A stretch of 42,260 bases of DNA, taken from contig JAPPJZ010000060.1 in NCBI GenBank assembly GCA_028874365.1, forward strand, positions 1-42,260, given 5' to 3'. The translations under genes were made by a program, and so were the position numbers. This DNA is from Chloroflexota bacterium. Its GTDB lineage: Bacteria; Chloroflexota; Dehalococcoidia; Bin125. Position 1 is the first letter of the stretch. Every line of letters starts with the position of its first letter. The notes under the pieces are model-generated. The model ran no database searches, was not told the origin of the DNA, and saw only the letters and a program-made list of their open reading frames with translations. Below are positions 26,374 through 37,067 of this stretch, piece after piece.

Positions 26374-26404
26374 GTTGCAGTCGAGCGCAGGAACGGAGTC
26401 AGCG

Positions 26405-27298
26405 ATGGAGCGGATCGGATTTATCGGGCTGGGGATCATGGGTGTGCCGATGGTCGCGAATCTGATCAAGGCGGGGTTTGTGCCGACGGTCTGGAACCGT
26501 TCCCAGCCTGGGGTCGATGCCTGCGTCGAGTTGGGCGCGACCGCAGCCGACTCGCCCCAGGCGGTCGCGGAGGTGAGCGACATCCTGATCACGATCGTGA
26601 CCGACTCGCCCGACGTGGAGTCGGTGTTGGTTGGTCGCGACGACGCGGCGATTCATGGACTCGCCCGAGGCTCCGTCGTGATTGACATGTCGACCATCTC
26701 ACCAGCGGTCACGAGGGAGATTGCGTCCAGGCTGTCCGAGCGCGGCGTGTCGATGCTGGACGCGCCGGTTTCGGGCGGGGACACCGGCGCGAAGGCCGGA
26801 ACGCTCTCGATCATGGTCGGCGGCGACGCGGACGTGCTCGAACGTTGTCTGCCAGTGCTCGAGGCGATGGGCGCGACGATCACGCATTGCGGTCCGACCG
26901 GGGCAGGCCAGACTGTGAAGCTCTGTAACCAGGTCGCGATCGCGGGTGCGCTGCTGGGCGTCTGCGAGGCGCTATCGCTGGCCCATAAGTCGGGCGTTGA
27001 CCAGGAGCGGATGCTGGCCGCGATTTCTGCAGGAGCGGCGGGAAGCTGGCAGCTCACGAACTTGGGACCGAAGATCGCCGTCGAAGACTACGCGCCCGGT
27101 TTCATGGTGAAGCTGATGCAGAAGGATCTGCGGCTCGCGTTGGAAGCGGGCGGCGACGTGTTGCAGCCGTTGCCGAACACGTCGCTGGTACAGCAGTTGT
27201 ACTACCAACTGCAGACATCGGGGCTCGGGGACGAGGGAACTCAGGCGCTGGCGCGAGTGATCGCTGGATTGGGGCAGGGGGTTCGGCCCTCACCCTAG
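26405..27298 (+). CDS. 3-hydroxyisobutyrate / tartronate-semialdehyde reductase-family dehydrogenase
   Basis: A 297-aa beta-hydroxyacid dehydrogenase (GarR/MmsB type). It oxidises a 3-hydroxy acid to the semialdehyde or the reverse, using NAD(P). IGFIGLGIMGVPM is the Rossmann loop and WNRS after the second strand suggests NADP. DAPVSGGDTGAKAGTL is the substrate motif, K172 in GAGQTVKLCNQ the catalytic Lys and KDLRLAL the C-terminal motif. Length is normal. ATG 26405 has GGAG 7 nt upstream. It could work in valine degradation, glyoxylate or sugar-acid metabolism, the last linking it loosely to the enolase-superfamily dehydratase. A hairpin repeat begins 2 bases after its stop. Confidence 0.92.
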   Translation: MERIGFIGLGIMGVPMVANLIKAGFVPTVWNRSQPGVDACVELGATAADSPQAVAEVSDILITIVTDSPDVESVLVGRDDAAIHGLARGSVVIDMSTISPAVTREIASRLSERGVSMLDAPVSGGDTGAKAGTLSIMVGGDADVLERCLPVLEAMGATITHCGPTGAGQTVKLCNQVAIAGALLGVCEALSLAHKSGVDQERMLAAISAGAAGSWQLTNLGPKIAVEDYAPGFMVKLMQKDLRLALEAGGDVLQPLPNTSLVQQLYYQLQTSGLGDEGTQALARVIAGLGQGVRPSP

Positions 27299-27353: not shown

Positions 27354-27794
27354 TTAGTGCGAGTGCATCTCGCCGATTGTCTCGTCGGCGTGGGCGAGTC
27401 GCTCGGCGACGTGTTGAAGCATTGACCAGAGCACCGGGGCTGTGGCGCCTTCGGCGAACGAGTTGCGCAGGATCTGGAGGCACTCGGTCTCTTCCTTGGC
27501 CACCACGGTGGCCGAGCGCGGCCGGCCCAGGAGGAGCGCCATTTCGCCGAAGAAATCGCCCTCACCAAATGAGGCGAGCAACGTCTGGTCGTCCGACTCA
27601 TAGCTCTGGTACACGTCAACGGAACCGCTGCGAATGATGTGCAGGGTTGTTCCCAGGTCGCCTTCGCGGTCAATCACCTGACCCGGCTTGTAGTCCTGGA
27701 TTTGCACCCAGCCGGCGATCTGGTGCAACTCGTCGCGATCGACGCGAGAGAACAGCGAGGTGTTGGCGAGCATGTCTTCGATGGAAACCGGCAT
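27354..27794 (-). CDS. stand-alone cyclic nucleotide-binding domain protein
   Basis: A 146-aa protein consisting essentially of one cNMP-binding domain of the CRP/PKA-regulatory fold. PGQVIDREGDLGTTLHIIRSGSVDVYQ is the beta-roll, and FGEMALLLGRPRSATVVA is the phosphate-binding cassette with the Glu and Arg that contact the cyclic nucleotide. There is no helix-turn-helix or kinase after it, only about 35 residues of helix ending in a His-rich tail. ATG 27794 is chosen because GGAGG sits 5 nt upstream; the ATG at 27815 would add 7 residues without such a site. It may act through a partner protein. The upstream 146 bases hold a GATAG...CTATC inverted repeat (27854-27872) of unknown meaning. Confidence 0.85.
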   Translation of the reverse strand: MPVSIEDMLANTSLFSRVDRDELHQIAGWVQIQDYKPGQVIDREGDLGTTLHIIRSGSVDVYQSYESDDQTLLASFGEGDFFGEMALLLGRPRSATVVAKEETECLQILRNSFAEGATAPVLWSMLQHVAERLAHADETIGEMHSH

Positions 27795-27940
27795 TTCAAC
27801 CTCCGAAGCTGACATCCAATGTCTGCGCTGGTTCCGCGCGTCTTCATAAGCAAGATAGCGCGTATATCTATCGGTGCTGTCCGATCTCAGGTCGCGGATC
27901 GCTGCTTGTGAATCAGGTTGCTATCGAAGCGGCTTGCCGT

Positions 27941-29227
27941 TTACGCCAATTCGTGGCGAAAGTCGGGGTGCGCGATTGCGCGCAGCGCATCGGCGCGAGC
28001 GGCGAGCGTGCGTCCGGCCAACTCGGCCTGGCCGTACTCGGTGATGATCCGATCGGCGAGGGTTCGGGGCGTGGTAACGACGGCGCCGGGATCGAGTTGC
28101 CTGACGATTCGCGAGACCTTGCCCCGCGCCGCGGTCGCGGGCATCGCGACGACCGAAACGCCTCCGTTGAGCATCGAACCTGCGGCAAAGTCAGGCTGTC
28201 CGCCTGGACCGGAGATCTGTCGCGGGCCGAGCGATTCGGCATTGATCGTGCCATCCAGGGTCACCTGGACAGCGGAGTTGATGCCGACGAAGTTGCTCTG
28301 CTGGGCCAGGATCTCGAGCGAGTGGGTGTAACCGGCGGGCGCCATGCAGACTGCCGGATTGCGGTCGATCCAGTGGAAGAACTCGGCGCTGCCGGCGGCC
28401 TCCGTGGTGATGATTAGCTCGGGAGCGGTCGCCTTTTGGGAGCCGGTCAATGCGCCGCTCTCGACCATGCCCATGACGCCATCCGAGATCAGGCCGGAGT
28501 GAATGCCCAGGTCACTGCGGTCGCCGAGCATGCCCATGATCGCCTCGGGCACACCGCCGATGCCGAACTGGAGAGTCGCACCGTCGGTGACGAGGTTGGC
28601 GACGGAAGCCGCGATCTCTCGCTCCAGCGCGCCGGGCTCCGAGCGGCGTAGTTCCAGAACGTCGCTCGGGAACGGAACGAGCCAGTCGAACTCCTCGCGA
28701 CGCAGTTCAGCGGCGCCGAAGGTGTAGGGCAGGTTGGGATTGACCTGTGCGATCACCAGCGGGGCGGTGCGCACGACATCGACGATGCCGCCAACGGAGG
28801 TCCCGAGCGAGTACATGCCTTCCGGCCCGGGTTCGGAGACCTGAATCAGGATCGCGTCGGCGGGCAGCGGACCAGTTGGCCGAAAGAGCGTGGGCAGCTG
28901 CGCGTACGTGGCCGGGATGTGTTGCAGCGCGCCCGCTGCATCGACATCGCGCAACGGCCCGCTGGTCTGGTAGGTCGAGAAGCGGAACGGTTCGTTGGGA
29001 TGGTCCAGCGGCGGCACGTGGGTGAAGAGGTTGCCGGTCGCAATCTCGATGTCAGTCCAGCCGTCGCGCAAGTCGTCGAGTGCGGCCAACAACGCGAGCG
29101 GGGTCGCCGACATCGGCGGCACGACCACACGCGCTCCGTCCGGTATCTGGCGGAGCGCCTGGTCGGCTGTGCCATCGCGCGTCGGGCGCGGGGCAGAGCG
29201 CGGCGGGAGGTAGGAGTCGAAGTTCAT
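27941..29227 (-). CDS. acetyl-CoA hydrolase/transferase family protein with Gly at the catalytic Glu position
   Basis: A 428-aa protein of the family I (Cat1/4-hydroxybutyrate CoA-transferase) type. LQFGIGGVPEAI (220-230) and DLGIHSGLISDG (239-250) are the two central motifs, and GGQPDFAAGSMLNGG is the C-terminal GGxxDF block. In characterised members the second motif reads HTEM or HSEM and its Glu forms the glutamyl-CoA intermediate (E238 in 4-hydroxybutyrate CoA-transferase, E294 in AarC). Here it is G245. The protein may be a thioesterase, use another nucleophile, or belong to a known Gly-bearing subgroup. No clear ribosome-binding site precedes ATG 29227. It lies 73 bases after the alcohol dehydrogenase gene, separated by a hairpin. 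Confidence 0.85.
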   Translation of the reverse strand: MNFDSYLPPRSAPRPTRDGTADQALRQIPDGARVVVPPMSATPLALLAALDDLRDGWTDIEIATGNLFTHVPPLDHPNEPFRFSTYQTSGPLRDVDAAGALQHIPATYAQLPTLFRPTGPLPADAILIQVSEPGPEGMYSLGTSVGGIVDVVRTAPLVIAQVNPNLPYTFGAAELRREEFDWLVPFPSDVLELRRSEPGALEREIAASVANLVTDGATLQFGIGGVPEAIMGMLGDRSDLGIHSGLISDGVMGMVESGALTGSQKATAPELIITTEAAGSAEFFHWIDRNPAVCMAPAGYTHSLEILAQQSNFVGINSAVQVTLDGTINAESLGPRQISGPGGQPDFAAGSMLNGGVSVVAMPATAARGKVSRIVRQLDPGAVVTTPRTLADRIITEYGQAELAGRTLAARADALRAIAHPDFRHELA

Positions 29228-29300: not shown

Positions 29301-30416
29301 CTATGGCTGGGAGATGTCGAGCACGCCTCGGGCGACTTCGCCGGCCTGCATGGCGGCGAAGGCGTCGTTGATCTCATCGAGCGCGAAGCGCTTCGAAACC
29401 AGACCGGACAGGTCGAGCTTGCCCTGTCGGTAGAGGTCGAGCAGCTTGGGCATGTGCTCGCGGAAGCGAGTCGAGCCGTACATGCAGCCGATCGCCTTCT
29501 TCTCCTGCAGGAACTCCGGACCTGGCAGGTTGACTTCGGAGCCGAGCGGCATCATGCCGACGATGCAGGCAGTGCCGCCGGGGCGGACCATGTCCCAGGC
29601 CTGTCGTGCGGCGTTGACGTTGCCGATGGCCTCGAACGCAATCTCGACGCCCATGCCTTCGGTCAGATCCTTGACCGCCTCGACGGCGTCGACCTCGGTC
29701 GCGTTGATGCGGTCGGTTGCGCCGAACTGCTCGGCGAAGTCGAGCTTGTTGTCGAGGATGTCAACGGCGATGATGCGGCTCGCGCCGGCGATCCGGCAGC
29801 CCTGGATGACGTTGAGGCCGACACCGCCGCAGCCAATCACCGCGACGATCGAGCCGCCCGGCACCTTGGCGGTGTAGAGCGCGGCGCCGACGCCGGTCAT
29901 CACGCCGCAGCCGACCAGAGCGGCCTCCGCCGGCGGGACGTCCTCGGGAATCTTGAGGACACCGGACTGAGTGGTGAGCATGTACTCGCCGAACGAGCCG
30001 ACCGAGGCCATCTGCATGACCGGGCGGCCGTCCCAGCTCAGGCGGCTCATCGAGAGTTGCGTGTCATTGGGTGCGGGGCAAAGGTTTGGCTCGCCGCGCC
30101 AGCACCAGTAGCAGTCACCGCAGAAGGGGCGGAACGACATGATGACGTGGTCGCCGGGCGACACATAGGTCACATCCGAGCCGACCTCTTCGACGACGCC
30201 GGCGGCCTCGTGGCCGAGGATGGTCGGTCGTCCGCCGAATGCCGCGCCCCATTTGCCGTCGATGAAGTGGAGGTCAGAGTGGCAGACACCGCTCGTCGTT
30301 GTGCGAACCAGCACCTCGGTTGGCTGCGGGTCGCGCACTTCAACGTCGTGGACTTCCAAGACGTCGCGGTCGCCGTCCTTGGCCTGAGCTCCCGGTTCCC
30401 AGATGGCAGCTTTCAT
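29301..30416 (-). CDS. zinc-dependent alcohol dehydrogenase (class III-like, MDR superfamily)
   Basis: A 371-aa medium-chain dehydrogenase that oxidises an alcohol or thiol adduct with NAD. Catalytic zinc ligands are C45 (GVCHSD), H69-E70 (GHEAAG) and C170 (VGCGVMTG). Structural zinc ligands are C99, C102, C105 and C113 (FCGDCYWCWRGEPNLC). The Rossmann motif is GCGGVGLNVIQG, and AVDILDNK after the second strand points to NAD. Overall it resembles the class III formaldehyde dehydrogenase and NDMA-dependent mycothiol branches, but thiol specificity cannot be told. ATG 30416 has GGGAAGGGA upstream. The following CoA-transferase-type gene on the same strand suggests alcohol to acid or acyl-CoA metabolism. 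Confidence 0.92.
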   Translation of the reverse strand: MKAAIWEPGAQAKDGDRDVLEVHDVEVRDPQPTEVLVRTTTSGVCHSDLHFIDGKWGAAFGGRPTILGHEAAGVVEEVGSDVTYVSPGDHVIMSFRPFCGDCYWCWRGEPNLCPAPNDTQLSMSRLSWDGRPVMQMASVGSFGEYMLTTQSGVLKIPEDVPPAEAALVGCGVMTGVGAALYTAKVPGGSIVAVIGCGGVGLNVIQGCRIAGASRIIAVDILDNKLDFAEQFGATDRINATEVDAVEAVKDLTEGMGVEIAFEAIGNVNAARQAWDMVRPGGTACIVGMMPLGSEVNLPGPEFLQEKKAIGCMYGSTRFREHMPKLLDLYRQGKLDLSGLVSKRFALDEINDAFAAMQAGEVARGVLDISQP

Positions 30417-30525: not shown

Positions 30526-30870
30526 CTAGGCAGGGGGGAGGAGACCGAAGAGTCGTCGTTTCTTCGGCGGCGGGTTGCGTCGCTCCTGGACCCGCTGGGC
30601 TGCGATCTGGAGCAACGCGAGCATGCCCTGGGCCGACCAGCGATCCTCTTCCAGCCAGGCGGCGAGTTTGGCGTCGGCCGCGGCGACGTTGCCCGCGATT
30701 CGCCGTTCGTGGAAGCGTTCGAGGCGGCGCACGATTCGGAATGCCGTGAGTGACGCCTTGAGTACGGCCACGAGGAAGATGAAGGCGACCACGGACGCGC
30801 CGATCCCGGCCAGGATCAGGACCGCGTCACGCAACTCGGCGAGGTCTCTGAAAACCGCCAGTTCGGCCAT
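30526..30870 (-). CDS. 114-aa single-pass membrane protein of unknown function
   Basis: The protein has a short N-terminal soluble part, one membrane segment (about residues 16-41, VLILAGIGASVVAFIFLVAV), then a basic helix (FRIVRRLERFHERRIAGN) and a further helical region ending in a Pro/Lys-rich tail (PPPKKRRLFGLLPPA). By the positive-inside rule the C-terminal part is cytoplasmic. I do not recognise the family. Weak AGG before ATG 30870. It is divergent from a 36-aa membrane microprotein with only 28 bases between the two starts, so they may be co-regulated. Confidence 0.6.
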   Translation of the reverse strand: MAELAVFRDLAELRDAVLILAGIGASVVAFIFLVAVLKASLTAFRIVRRLERFHERRIAGNVAAADAKLAAWLEEDRWSAQGMLALLQIAAQRVQERRNPPPKKRRLFGLLPPA

Positions 30871-34388: not shown

Positions 34389-35396
34389 GTCGCCCTTACG
34401 CCGCACGGCGACTCCGGAGAGTGTCTCCAGGACGACTCGATTGGCGAGCAACGCGGTGACGTCCGAGGTGTCGTATGGAGGCGAGACCTCGACCACGTCG
34501 ACACCGAGCAGGTTGGACTCCATGCCGATGCGGCGGACGGCGTCGAGGAGTTGGCGCGAGGTGAGTCCGCCCGACTCGGGGGTGCCGGTGCCGGGGGCCA
34601 TGCCGGGGTCGACTACGTCGACATCGACGGAGAGGAAGACGCCGTCGCAGTCGTCGGCGGCGACCTCGATTGCCTCGTCGAGGCAATCGTCGAGACCGCG
34701 CTGGACGACCTCGGTCATTTCGAACCAACGCATGCGCTGGTCGGCCATCCATTCCAGGATGGGCGGATCGGGCCAGTATCCGCGTAGGCCGATCTGGAGG
34801 AACCGGTCGCCGCGGACGGCGCCACTGAGGATGAGCCGTCGCATCGGTGTTCCGTGGCCCCAGAGTCCGCCGTCGGAATCGCCGGTGTCGGCGTGGGCGT
34901 CGAAGTGGATCAGGGCGATGCGTCCGAATCCGTGGTGCTTGGCTACACCCTGAGCGGTGGCGTAGGTGATGGTGTGGTCACCGCCAAGCACGACGGGGAT
35001 CGCGCCTGCCGCCGACACTTGGCGGCAGGCGTCCATCAGCCGCTGCAGACTGGGTTCGCTGTCGAGTTGCTGCATGTTGACATCGCCCGCGTCGACGACG
35101 CCCAGTTCGCCGAGGGGATCCACCCCGAGTCCCAGATGGGGGCGATAGCCGGAGTGGGGAATGTAGTCGGCGGAGCGGATTGCCTGGGGTCCGAAGCGTG
35201 CGCCGGGCCGGTAGCTGGTGCCGGCGTCGAAGGGCGCGCCGAGAATGACCGCACCTGCGTCCTGGATCGTTTCGGGTCGGCGCAGGTTGGCTCGGGGCAC
35301 GCCGAGGAAGGTGAATGACGGACCGTAGCGATTGGCCGGGCGCGCCCTGAGGTGGGCTTCCTCGTATGAGCCAGGCGGGTTCGAATGCTCAGCCAT
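34383..35396 (-). CDS. agmatinase/arginase-family ureohydrolase
   Basis: A 337-aa binuclear manganese ureohydrolase that hydrolyses a guanidino compound, most likely agmatine to putrescine and urea. Metal ligands are H141 (GGDHTI), D166, H168 and D170 (FDAHAD), and D258 and D260 (SVDVDVVDP). GAPFDAGTSYRPGARFGP is the family N-terminal block. The chain is about 30 residues longer than E. coli SpeB at the N terminus (YEEAHLRARPANRYG). ATG 35396 has GAGGAG upstream. Guanidinobutyrase or a related substrate cannot be excluded. It diverges from the formate dehydrogenase genes. Confidence 0.92.
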   Translation of the reverse strand: MAEHSNPPGSYEEAHLRARPANRYGPSFTFLGVPRANLRRPETIQDAGAVILGAPFDAGTSYRPGARFGPQAIRSADYIPHSGYRPHLGLGVDPLGELGVVDAGDVNMQQLDSEPSLQRLMDACRQVSAAGAIPVVLGGDHTITYATAQGVAKHHGFGRIALIHFDAHADTGDSDGGLWGHGTPMRRLILSGAVRGDRFLQIGLRGYWPDPPILEWMADQRMRWFEMTEVVQRGLDDCLDEAIEVAADDCDGVFLSVDVDVVDPGMAPGTGTPESGGLTSRQLLDAVRRIGMESNLLGVDVVEVSPPYDTSDVTALLANRVVLETLSGVAVRRKGDG

Positions 35397-35495
35397 CGTC
35401 GCTCCTCACTCACGTGGGGGCTGTCGGAGTGGTATCTAGAATGGTATCCAGCACGTCTCCCGGGGCTATCGAGCGGGCGGAAGGGCAAACTCGAC

Positions 35496-37067
35496 GTGAC
35501 CACCGCGACGGCAACCGAGGCTCATCTGAGTGAGCTCCAGCGAGCGCTGGCGGCGTTGCCGCGGCAGCGAACGCAGGTCCTGCCGGCGCTTCACATCGTG
35601 GACGAGATTTATGGGCATCTCGAGCATGCCGCGCTCGAGGAGGTGGCTCGCTGGGTGCATATGCCGCGTGCCGAGTTGTTCGCCGTGGCGACCAGTTACA
35701 CCGAATTCCGCTGGAGTCCGTTGGCGTCGGATGCGGTTCGGGTGTGCCGTGGGATGACATGCCAGATCGCGGCGGGCGGGTCGGAGGTTGAGGGCGAGGA
35801 TCACGAGTGCATGTTCCTGTGCGCGGCTGCGCAGAGGGAGCCGATTGCGGTCGGCGGGTCGGATCGATTGGAGGCATCAATCGATGATGCGATCTTTGCT
35901 GCGGCGCGCGCGACGGTGCCGGGCGGGCTGACTCGCGTCAGCGCCAGACGCACGACTGAGCCGCCCGAGTGGCGCGGCTGGGCAGAGGCGGCGCGGCTAA
36001 GTCCGTCCGAGTGCCTGGGGTTGGTGGAAGCTGCGGGACTGCTGGGCCGCGGCGGCGCGTATTTTCCGGTACACCTGAAGTGGGGCGGGGCGGTGGATGC
36101 CGCGGCACGCAACGGTCAGCCGATTCTGGTCGCGAATGGGGAAGAGGGTGAGCCGGGAACGTTTAAGGATCGCTGGCTGATGGAGTCGGATCCGCAGCGG
36201 ATCCTGGAGGGCATTCGGATCGCCTGCTACACGCTGGGCGCGTCGCAGGCGTTCTGGTACATCAACGGGATGGCAGATCGCTCGGCGGCCGCCGCCGCAT
36301 CAGCGATCGCCGAGGCGCGATCGTCGGGTTTGCTGGGCGGGCTCGATGTCGAGATTCGCCGCGGCGCCGGTGGGTACGTGTGCGGGGAGGAGTCGGTGAT
36401 CCTGGAGTCGATCGAGGGTCATCGGGCCGTACCGCGGCTGAAGCCGCCGTATCCGACCGAGCGCGGGCTGTGGGGGCGTCCGACGGCGATCAACAGCGTT
36501 GAGACGCTGGCGAATGTGCCCGACATCTTCGAGTTTGGCGCCGACTGGTTCAGAGAGGTCGGAGCCGAAGGAATGCCGGGGACGAAGCTGGTCCAGTTGA
36601 GCGGGGCGTTTCGCAATCGCGGCGTGATCGAACTGCCGCTGGGAACCTCGGTTTCCGAGATTGTCGAGCTCGGCGAACCGACCGAGTCGCTGGCCGGGGT
36701 CACGATGGGTGGACCGTCGGGCGGCTTCCTTGCGCCTGAGAACTTTGACACGCCGATTGCACCCGGACAGATGGACGGCCATGGGGCGCTGCTGGGGGCG
36801 GGTGGAATCATTGCGATTCCGGAGTCGTTCGGGATTGAGCGGGCACTCCGGGTCTGGACCGAGTACAACGCCAACGAGTCATGCGGGAAGTGCACGCCGT
36901 GCCGCGAGGGATCGGGGCGGATGGCCGCCGCTCTCGCCGATGGGAACTGGGCGGACATCGAGGCGCTGATCCCGTTGATTGCCGCGGGGTCGCTGTGCGG
37001 GCTGGGTCAGATGGCGCCGAATCCGATTACTTCTGCGCGGCATCAGTTTGGCGGGAGCGTCCTATGA
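35496..37067 (+). CDS. formate dehydrogenase beta subunit, NuoE-NuoF fusion
   Basis: A 523-aa diaphorase subunit that would pass electrons from formate dehydrogenase to NAD. Residues about 1-135 are NuoE-like with a complete [2Fe-2S] site: C84, C89, C105, C109 (Cx4C, Cx3C). The rest is NuoF: GRGGAYFPVHLKWGG from 184 (FMN), NGEEGEPGTFKDRWLME (NADH/FMN), GAGGYVCGEESVILES, and a [4Fe-4S] site with C463, C466, C469 and C501. The GTG at 35496 is preceded by GGAAGGG; the open frame upstream overlaps the ureohydrolase start region. Its stop overlaps the alpha-subunit ATG (ATGA), so the two are translated together. The order fused NuoEF then alpha subunit is known in NAD-linked formate dehydrogenases. 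Confidence 0.92.
   Translation: MTTATATEAHLSELQRALAALPRQRTQVLPALHIVDEIYGHLEHAALEEVARWVHMPRAELFAVATSYTEFRWSPLASDAVRVCRGMTCQIAAGGSEVEGEDHECMFLCAAAQREPIAVGGSDRLEASIDDAIFAAARATVPGGLTRVSARRTTEPPEWRGWAEAARLSPSECLGLVEAAGLLGRGGAYFPVHLKWGGAVDAAARNGQPILVANGEEGEPGTFKDRWLMESDPQRILEGIRIACYTLGASQAFWYINGMADRSAAAAASAIAEARSSGLLGGLDVEIRRGAGGYVCGEESVILESIEGHRAVPRLKPPYPTERGLWGRPTAINSVETLANVPDIFEFGADWFREVGAEGMPGTKLVQLSGAFRNRGVIELPLGTSVSEIVELGEPTESLAGVTMGGPSGGFLAPENFDTPIAPGQMDGHGALLGAGGIIAIPESFGIERALRVWTEYNANESCGKCTPCREGSGRMAAALADGNWADIEALIPLIAAGSLCGLGQMAPNPITSARHQFGGSVL

Follow-up and report, generated by a model that had tools for sequence, protein, structure and literature searches.

Glycine at the nucleophile position in a widespread branch of Cat1-type CoA-transferase homologs, and how such enzymes may still transfer CoA

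Cat1-type CoA-transferases such as AbfT and AarC work through a covalent route in which an active-site glutamate is the nucleophile. How, then, could a homolog operate when this glutamate is replaced by glycine? The question is raised by a gene in a stretch of 42,260 nucleotides of DNA (contig JAPPJZ010000060.1, here called the window) from a Chloroflexota bacterium whose genome assembly comprises 82 contigs. A sequence-only reading of the window had claimed that Gly stands where the nucleophilic Glu should be, that the other motifs are intact, that the chemistry must differ and that a subfamily rather than a lone mutation may be involved. The gene and its key codon are as follows.

27941..29227, minus strand: Gly-type Cat1-like CoA-transferase homolog (frame of 428 amino acids plus stop)
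28493..28495, minus strand: codon of Gly245 (GGC; AbfT Glu238, AarC Glu294), from the multiple alignment and codon reading

The kind is already known, since a Cat1 enzyme with Gly at this site and a function established by assay was described in 2024. ThnP, which belongs to anaerobic naphthalene degradation in culture N47, is described as a Cat1 protein with Gly238 in place of the catalytic Glu that catalyzes intramolecular CoA transfer in vitro, acetyl- and succinyl-CoA being reported not to serve as donors (Kong et al. 2024, PMC11659651). Its locus tag is N47_E41340, and NPH_5902 in a second strain (PMC12016498). Regarding the breadth of the Gly clade, the coupled residue replacements and a clade-wide comparison of Glu276, no earlier account was found in open-licence papers; a search of the same literature for CoA-transferases of SAR202 or of sponges returned nothing.

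A Cat1 fold with glycine at residue 245

In the 428-residue protein, the Pfam scan matched PF13336 alone (161.2 bits), which corresponds to the C-terminal domain, and PF02550 gave no match at E <= 0.001; in a search of the whole genome, the sole PF02550 match was a paralog on contig C2. The best NCBIfam model, TIGR03948 (butyryl-CoA:acetate CoA-transferase), scored 205.5 bits, below its cut-off of 674.8. The best solved relatives found by phmmer are the 4-hydroxybutyrate CoA-transferases 9vag, 3eh7, 3d3u, 2oas and 3gk7 (AbfT), the alignment with 3gk7 spanning residues 17–427. The AlphaFold2 model (pLDDT 90.8, pTM 0.90) is closest to 2oas (Z 52.9, 1.7 Å over 412 residues) and also matches 3gk7 (Z 49.6); because both matches have high Z, the modelled fold is that of a plain two-domain Cat1 protein. 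The structural match covers residues 14–428 of a single chain of 428 residues, with no split into alpha and beta subunits. Fold, length and CoA motifs are shared with AbfT, 2oas, 3eh7 and butyryl-CoA:acetate CoA-transferase, and the fold is shared with AarC (4eu3, Z 33.9). A related fold is found in MdcA and the citrate lyase alpha subunit (5vit, Z 24.4; 1xr4, Z 27.2).

The nucleophile motif reads HSGLISDG (residues 243–250), with Gly at residue 245. In the phmmer alignments, this stretch is gap-free against all five solved relatives, each of which has Glu at the site (Glu238 in 3gk7); among the matches, the site was read in these five. In the multiple alignment, Gly245 corresponds to Glu294 of AarC and Glu238 of AbfT. 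Misalignment of the motif is ruled out, since both kinds of alignment are gap-free.

An ortholog was recovered from 12 of the 14 other genomes of the genus, the exceptions being G003 (89% complete) and G012 (88% complete). All 13 genus sequences, window included, have Gly245, encoded by any of GGC, GGG, GGA and GGT, and Glu276, His302, Asn329 and Gly343 are likewise invariant (13/13). Over 78 genus pairs, the median dN/dS is 0.094 and the largest 0.159, at a median dS of 1.09 that is near saturation. The 13 glycines, the four codons and the low dN/dS rule out a sequencing error or a pseudogene. Judged from these codons, residue 245 is strongly selected while its third codon base has drifted. 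The open frame, the gap-free alignments and the 13 genus sequences agree in bearing out the substitution claimed at the outset.

Common descent and a remodelled active site

The 187 matches in the fetched loci correspond to 156 unique homologs, to which the window protein and three PDB chains were added to make 160 rows. Removal of same-genus and repeat copies left 150 rows, and removal of those with >93% identity left 144; the rows removed included one with a gap at 245. The tree was computed with FastTree on the 144 rows after deletion of the columns around 245 and 276. It places 36 of the 37 Gly rows, together with an Ala row (L165) and a Thr row (L105), in one group with local support of 98 and with no Glu member inside it, the 37th Gly row (L177) falling outside. 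IQ-TREE on 65 of the tree rows again gave two changes between Glu and non-Glu. FastTree issued two kinds of warning, one for long branches (at L174, and where the Gly rows L106 and L176 meet) and one for an unusual letter composition in eleven rows. The clade spans Chloroflexota (inside and outside the class of the window), Pseudomonadota and Actinomycetota, its members beyond Chloroflexota being known from plasmids only. These plasmids come from Burkholderia, Paracoccus, Paraburkholderia, Cupriavidus, Pseudomonas luteola, Sphingobium, Acinetobacter, Sulfitobacter, Methylobacterium, Rhodococcus, Pseudonocardia and Mycobacterium paragordonae. On the evidence of these trees, the Gly members share common descent in an old and widespread branch derived from Cat1. 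The suggestion of a subfamily rather than a lone mutation is thereby upheld, with 36 of 37 Gly rows in one clade and the genus fixed for Gly.

Further departures from Glu were seen in single homologs, namely Ala in L165 and L175, Thr in L105 and Gln in L129. A second Gly lineage, of the long type, is represented by L188 (248–1750; G053:C2:28047-29549), an AarC-type homolog of 500 amino acids with Gly (FTGT) at the position of AarC Glu294; the next gene on the same strand encodes a Glu-type Cat1 homolog (L120). Within the Gly clade, an HTG subgroup (L023, L024, L045 and L046) has a shortened loop before position 276 and Val, Ile or Leu at that position.

The remaining active-site positions of the window protein are given below.

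28553..28570, minus strand: QFGIGG, residues 220–225, mobile loop (Ile223 corresponds to AarC Val270), from the alignment
28400..28402, minus strand: codon of Glu276 (AbfT Phe269 by alignment; ThnP Glu269 by offset)
28322..28324, minus strand: codon of His302 (AarC Asn347, AbfT Asn295), from the multiple alignment
28199..28201, minus strand: codon of Gly343 (AarC Gly388, external oxyanion hole), from the alignment

In AarC, Asn347, which belongs to the internal oxyanion hole, is reported to polarise and orient the Glu, and the external oxyanion hole is made up of Gly388 and an amide of CoA (PMC4876117). The window protein keeps the equivalents of AarC Gly388 and Val270, but Glu294 and Asn347 are replaced by Gly245 and His302. 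In comparison with AbfT-type enzymes, Glu, Asn and Phe at 245, 302 and 276 have become Gly, His and Glu, and the Phe residues at AbfT positions 81, 101 and 269 are Gln, Thr and Glu, respectively.

Replacements at these positions are found across the clade when its 36 Gly rows (L177 and the Ala and Thr rows being left out of the counts) are compared with 60 short Glu-type rows. Position 245 is Gly in 36/36 versus Glu in 60/60. Position 276 is never Phe in the clade (Glu 12, Val 9, Leu 5) and is Phe in 58/60 of the Glu type, while position 302 is His in 32/36 versus Asn in 57/60, His occurring there in only 2/103 of all Glu rows. Other columns also differ: Asn at 329 in 34/36 versus Cys in 40/60; His or Arg at 107 in 24/36 versus Phe in 41/60; Phe at 87 in 5/36 versus 59/60; and Val, Ile or Leu at 338 in 35/36 versus Tyr or Phe in 56/60. 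The position of AbfT Phe101, where 24/36 clade rows have His or Arg, is Thr in the window genus and His in AarC too; as judged from residue type, His or Arg here would be fit to hold a carboxylate. In RipA and 4-hydroxybutyrate enzymes, three phenylalanines are described as forming the acyl pocket (PMC3180442), and the Gly clade has lost Phe at three to four pocket-like columns, which may be the counterparts of the RipA residues. Conversely, Gly at 222, 224, 342 and 343 is present in 36/36 clade rows. Gln344, the counterpart of AbfT Gln337, which is reported to bond CoA (PMC11659651), is Gln in 22/36 rows, including the window protein.

Because 245, 276 and 302 have changed while 222, 224, 342 and 343 are invariant, the residues assisting the nucleophile were swapped jointly with it, and the glycines that hold and polarise the thioester were kept. 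As read from these columns, Glu, its supporting Asn and Phe269 are replaced as a coupled set, with the oxyanion-hole Gly retained. The view that all other motifs are intact thus stands in part: QFGIGG and GPGGQ are kept, but Asn has given way to His302, three Phe are lost and PF02550 is unmatched.

Replacement nucleophile or substrate carboxylate

The covalent Glu route of AarC and AbfT cannot operate in the window protein. The sequence-only reading was right on this point, but its options for the altered chemistry (hydrolysis, another nucleophile or CoA binding only) did not include attack by a carboxylate of the substrate. In CtfAB, mutants E46A and E46S are reported inactive and E46D is a hydrolase devoid of transferase activity (PMC12400318). 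From these mutants it follows that a stable, selected enzyme lacking the Glu needs another carboxylate or base.

The first candidate source is the protein itself, with Glu276 carrying the covalent intermediate in place of a Glu at 245. This residue lies 31 positions after Gly245, by which offset it would correspond to Glu269 in ThnP, and it aligns with AbfT Phe269. It is invariant in the 13 genus sequences, Phe takes its place in 58/60 rows of the short Glu type, and the ThnP authors judged Glu269 topologically similar; in their model, this residue is 6.5 Å from the CoA sulfur, and they weigh it against an internal anhydride (PMC11659651). Against relocation stand this distance, the loss of transfer in CtfAB upon even a Glu to Asp change (PMC12400318), and the distribution of the residue, since only 12/36 clade rows have Glu276, the others having Val, Leu, Ile, Ala, Gln, Met or Thr. 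In L079 and L081 (the proteins of L015 and L017), which come from the same family and adjoin an alcohol dehydrogenase gene, the residue is Val. With 24/36 rows lacking the Glu and Val in L079 and L081, a relocated nucleophile at Glu276 cannot explain the clade as a whole; for the window protein alone it is possible but unlikely. The sequence-only reading had envisaged a nearby Glu in the nucleophile position, for example in the following helix, as the contrary case. Such a Glu does exist at the ThnP offset, but the distance modelled for ThnP and its presence in one third of the clade rows weaken the objection.

Other candidates were rejected. Glu256, in the following helix, is present in 25/36 Gly rows but also in 44/103 Glu rows and, being common in Glu rows too, is no replacement. 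A clade-wide screen for polar residues present in >=75% of Gly rows and <30% of Glu rows gave Gln129, Asp268, His302, Asn329 and Arg404. Among these, Asn329 also occurs in AarC (Asn373), the window protein has Ala in place of Asp268, an Asp that AbfT shares, and His302 is no likely acyl carrier. An acidic residue at 402 is present in 83% of Gly versus 24% of Glu rows, but Glu is found there in AbfT too. Acidic residues at 268 and 402 are, by sequence columns alone, commoner in the Gly clade, which counts against a nucleophile supplied by the substrate.

Alternatively, the thioester could be held and hydrolyzed by water activated by His302 or Glu276. The near fixation of His302 speaks for an acyl-CoA hydrolase of this kind, as does the hydrolase activity of CtfAB E46D, for which general-base catalysis was proposed (PMC12400318). 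Yet the inactivity of E46A and E46S indicates that a carboxylate seems needed, and the 24 rows without Glu276 lack this one; moreover, ThnP is reported to keep the thioester (PMC11659651) and an operon devoted to acyl-CoA would presumably gain little from a thioesterase. Hydrolysis is thus unlikely.

The preferred reading, to which a probability of about one half is given, is that the clade enzymes work without glutamyl-CoA, through substrate-assisted and probably intramolecular CoA transfer. It is based on the alignment columns and on analogy with characterized systems. The acyl-CoA would still be bound, the retained oxyanion hole receiving its thioester carbonyl, and a dicarboxylic acyl-CoA would place its second carboxyl group where Glu and Phe are missing. 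This carboxylate would attack its own thioester to form an internal anhydride, and re-attack of the CoA thiolate on the other carbonyl would complete an intramolecular CoA transfer in which the thioester energy is kept. In the case of the window protein, the substrate may be, as a guess, an acid whose formation involves the neighbouring alcohol dehydrogenase.

Known systems argue both ways. MdcA is reported to have no acidic residue in its site, and direct attack by the malonate carboxylate was proposed (PMC5534430). MdcA and ThnP thus provide two precedents for a carboxylate from outside the protein, while Mct, which belongs to another family and transfers CoA intramolecularly by means of an enzyme aspartate (PMC9813914), and IpdAB count against it. 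MdcA, described as working without an enzyme nucleophile, and citrate lyase alpha are class II ACP transferases that act intermolecularly on an acyl-carrier protein substrate. Additionally, in the subclade of the window Glu276 sits in the pocket or close to it, unlike in MdcA and 24/36 clade rows, so that an enzyme carboxylate is not absent in the window genus. This speaks against substrate-assisted transfer, as do the Thr of the window genus at the position of AbfT Phe101 and the retention of Gln344 in 22/36 rows only. ThnP, according to its description, shares the Cat1 subgroup, Gly at the nucleophile position, a Glu 31 residues later and a QxGhG loop. It differs in having a known substrate and an anaerobic pathway, and in the 46% identity to a P. 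gingivalis butyryl-CoA:acetate CoA-transferase reported for it (PMC11659651), clade members with Glu276 having <=42.5% identity to 3eh7, which also comes from P. gingivalis but may be a different protein.

A broader version of substrate-assisted transfer is put forward more tentatively, on the same comparisons: a deep Cat1 clade in at least three phyla may have dismantled Glu, Asn and Phe as a unit and arrived independently, on a class I scaffold, at a transfer that resembles that of class II and has no enzyme nucleophile, the attack being left to the second carboxylate of the substrate; ThnP would then be the first assayed case.

Gene neighbourhoods and functional assignment

The genes nearest to the Gly gene in the window are the following.

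29301..30416, minus strand: zinc alcohol dehydrogenase, directly upstream (PF08240/PF00107)
27354..27815, minus strand: cyclic-nucleotide-binding domain protein, downstream (PF00027)
26375..27298, plus strand: 3-hydroxyisobutyrate-dehydrogenase-type protein, convergent (PF03446/PF14833)

The alcohol dehydrogenase gene adjoins the Gly gene on the same strand in 10/10 genus loci, with a gap of 77–123 nt in nine and 1737 nt in one. The pairing is kept in three of four other loci of the family (L079, L080 and L081, 47–84 nt); in the fourth, L082, the two genes are 3.1 kb apart, and in the more distant loci L083–L086 the pairing was not seen. The cyclic-nucleotide-binding gene lies behind the Gly gene in 10/10 genus loci; the hydroxyisobutyrate-dehydrogenase-type gene is found in the same ten, in L079 and, 3.8 kb away, in L081. 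Further upstream in the window are genes for an acyl-CoA dehydrogenase, an enoyl-CoA hydratase, a luciferase-like oxidoreductase and an arginase-family protein. None of the 12 window proteins scanned with Pfam was named as a carrier protein or as a lyase or decarboxylase subunit.

Plasmid regions were fetched for 20 homologs (14 Gly, 1 Thr and 5 Glu), 13 of the 15 Gly/Thr regions being annotated. These loci were hand-picked from match lists, each with 1 to 5 kb of flanking DNA, and the counts from this small sample are therefore not those of a random one. Genes for acyl-CoA dehydrogenase, thiolase, enoyl-CoA hydratase or MaoC occur in 12 of the 13 annotated Gly/Thr regions (none in L095), acyl-CoA dehydrogenase and thiolase each in eight. 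In the Glu-type regions, acyl-CoA dehydrogenase or thiolase is found in 0/5, and the wider set gives 1/5 (L107, enoyl-CoA hydratase RipB). Such neighbourhoods suit an enzyme within acyl-CoA breakdown pathways, although they do not name its substrate, and the nearest neighbours in the window, the alcohol dehydrogenase and the hydroxyisobutyrate-dehydrogenase type, spell out no dicarboxylate pathway.

Neighbouring genes also bear on two other possibilities. In IpdAB, a COCHEA-CoA hydrolase related to type I CoA-transferases, Gly57(beta) occupies the nucleophile site, short acyl-CoAs are reported to give no CoA transfer and the enzyme is assigned to steroid ring opening (PMC5380842). By analogy, the Gly-type proteins could hydrolyze a C–C bond to open the ring of a cyclic keto acyl-CoA, and one Gly-type operon does contain a menB-annotated gene, of the crotonase type that includes ring-opening enzymes. 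However, IpdAB is a two-subunit enzyme akin to glutaconate CoA-transferase (PMC5380842) and the window protein is a single-chain Cat1 protein, which makes C–C hydrolysis improbable. The adjoining cyclic-nucleotide-binding gene may hint that CoA or acyl-CoA is only bound, in a regulatory or scaffolding role, or that some other reaction takes place. This is very improbable in view of the active-site glycines invariant in 36/36 rows, the kept oxyanion-hole Gly and active-site loop, the coherent remodelling of the acyl pocket and the gene neighbourhoods.

In annotated plasmid records, Gly and Glu types share one name, as 'acetyl-CoA hydrolase/transferase' family or C-terminal domain proteins. Residues 245, 302 and 276 separate the two types in the present sample and predict which proteins are unable to form glutamyl-CoA at the usual place. 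Overall similarity is therefore not a safe ground for assigning a butyrate or 4-hydroxybutyrate CoA-transferase function, and the Glu-free working of ThnP becomes open to comparison across dozens of natural variants.

Several loci contain other features. Between the alcohol dehydrogenase and acyl-CoA dehydrogenase genes of the window (30526–30870, minus strand) lies a gene for a genus-conserved protein of 114 amino acids with a sub-threshold Pfam match only, and on the plus strand (35385–37067) a fused NuoE/NuoF-like protein (2Fe-2S thioredoxin-like and 51K domains) is followed by a frame of 997 amino acids. In L082 (10020–13617), from a genome in the family of the window, two hydantoinase_B genes stand directly upstream of the Gly-type gene. 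Genes of the ferredoxin-oxidoreductase type, recognized by eye from translations, seemingly lie near the Gly gene in L088 and L090.
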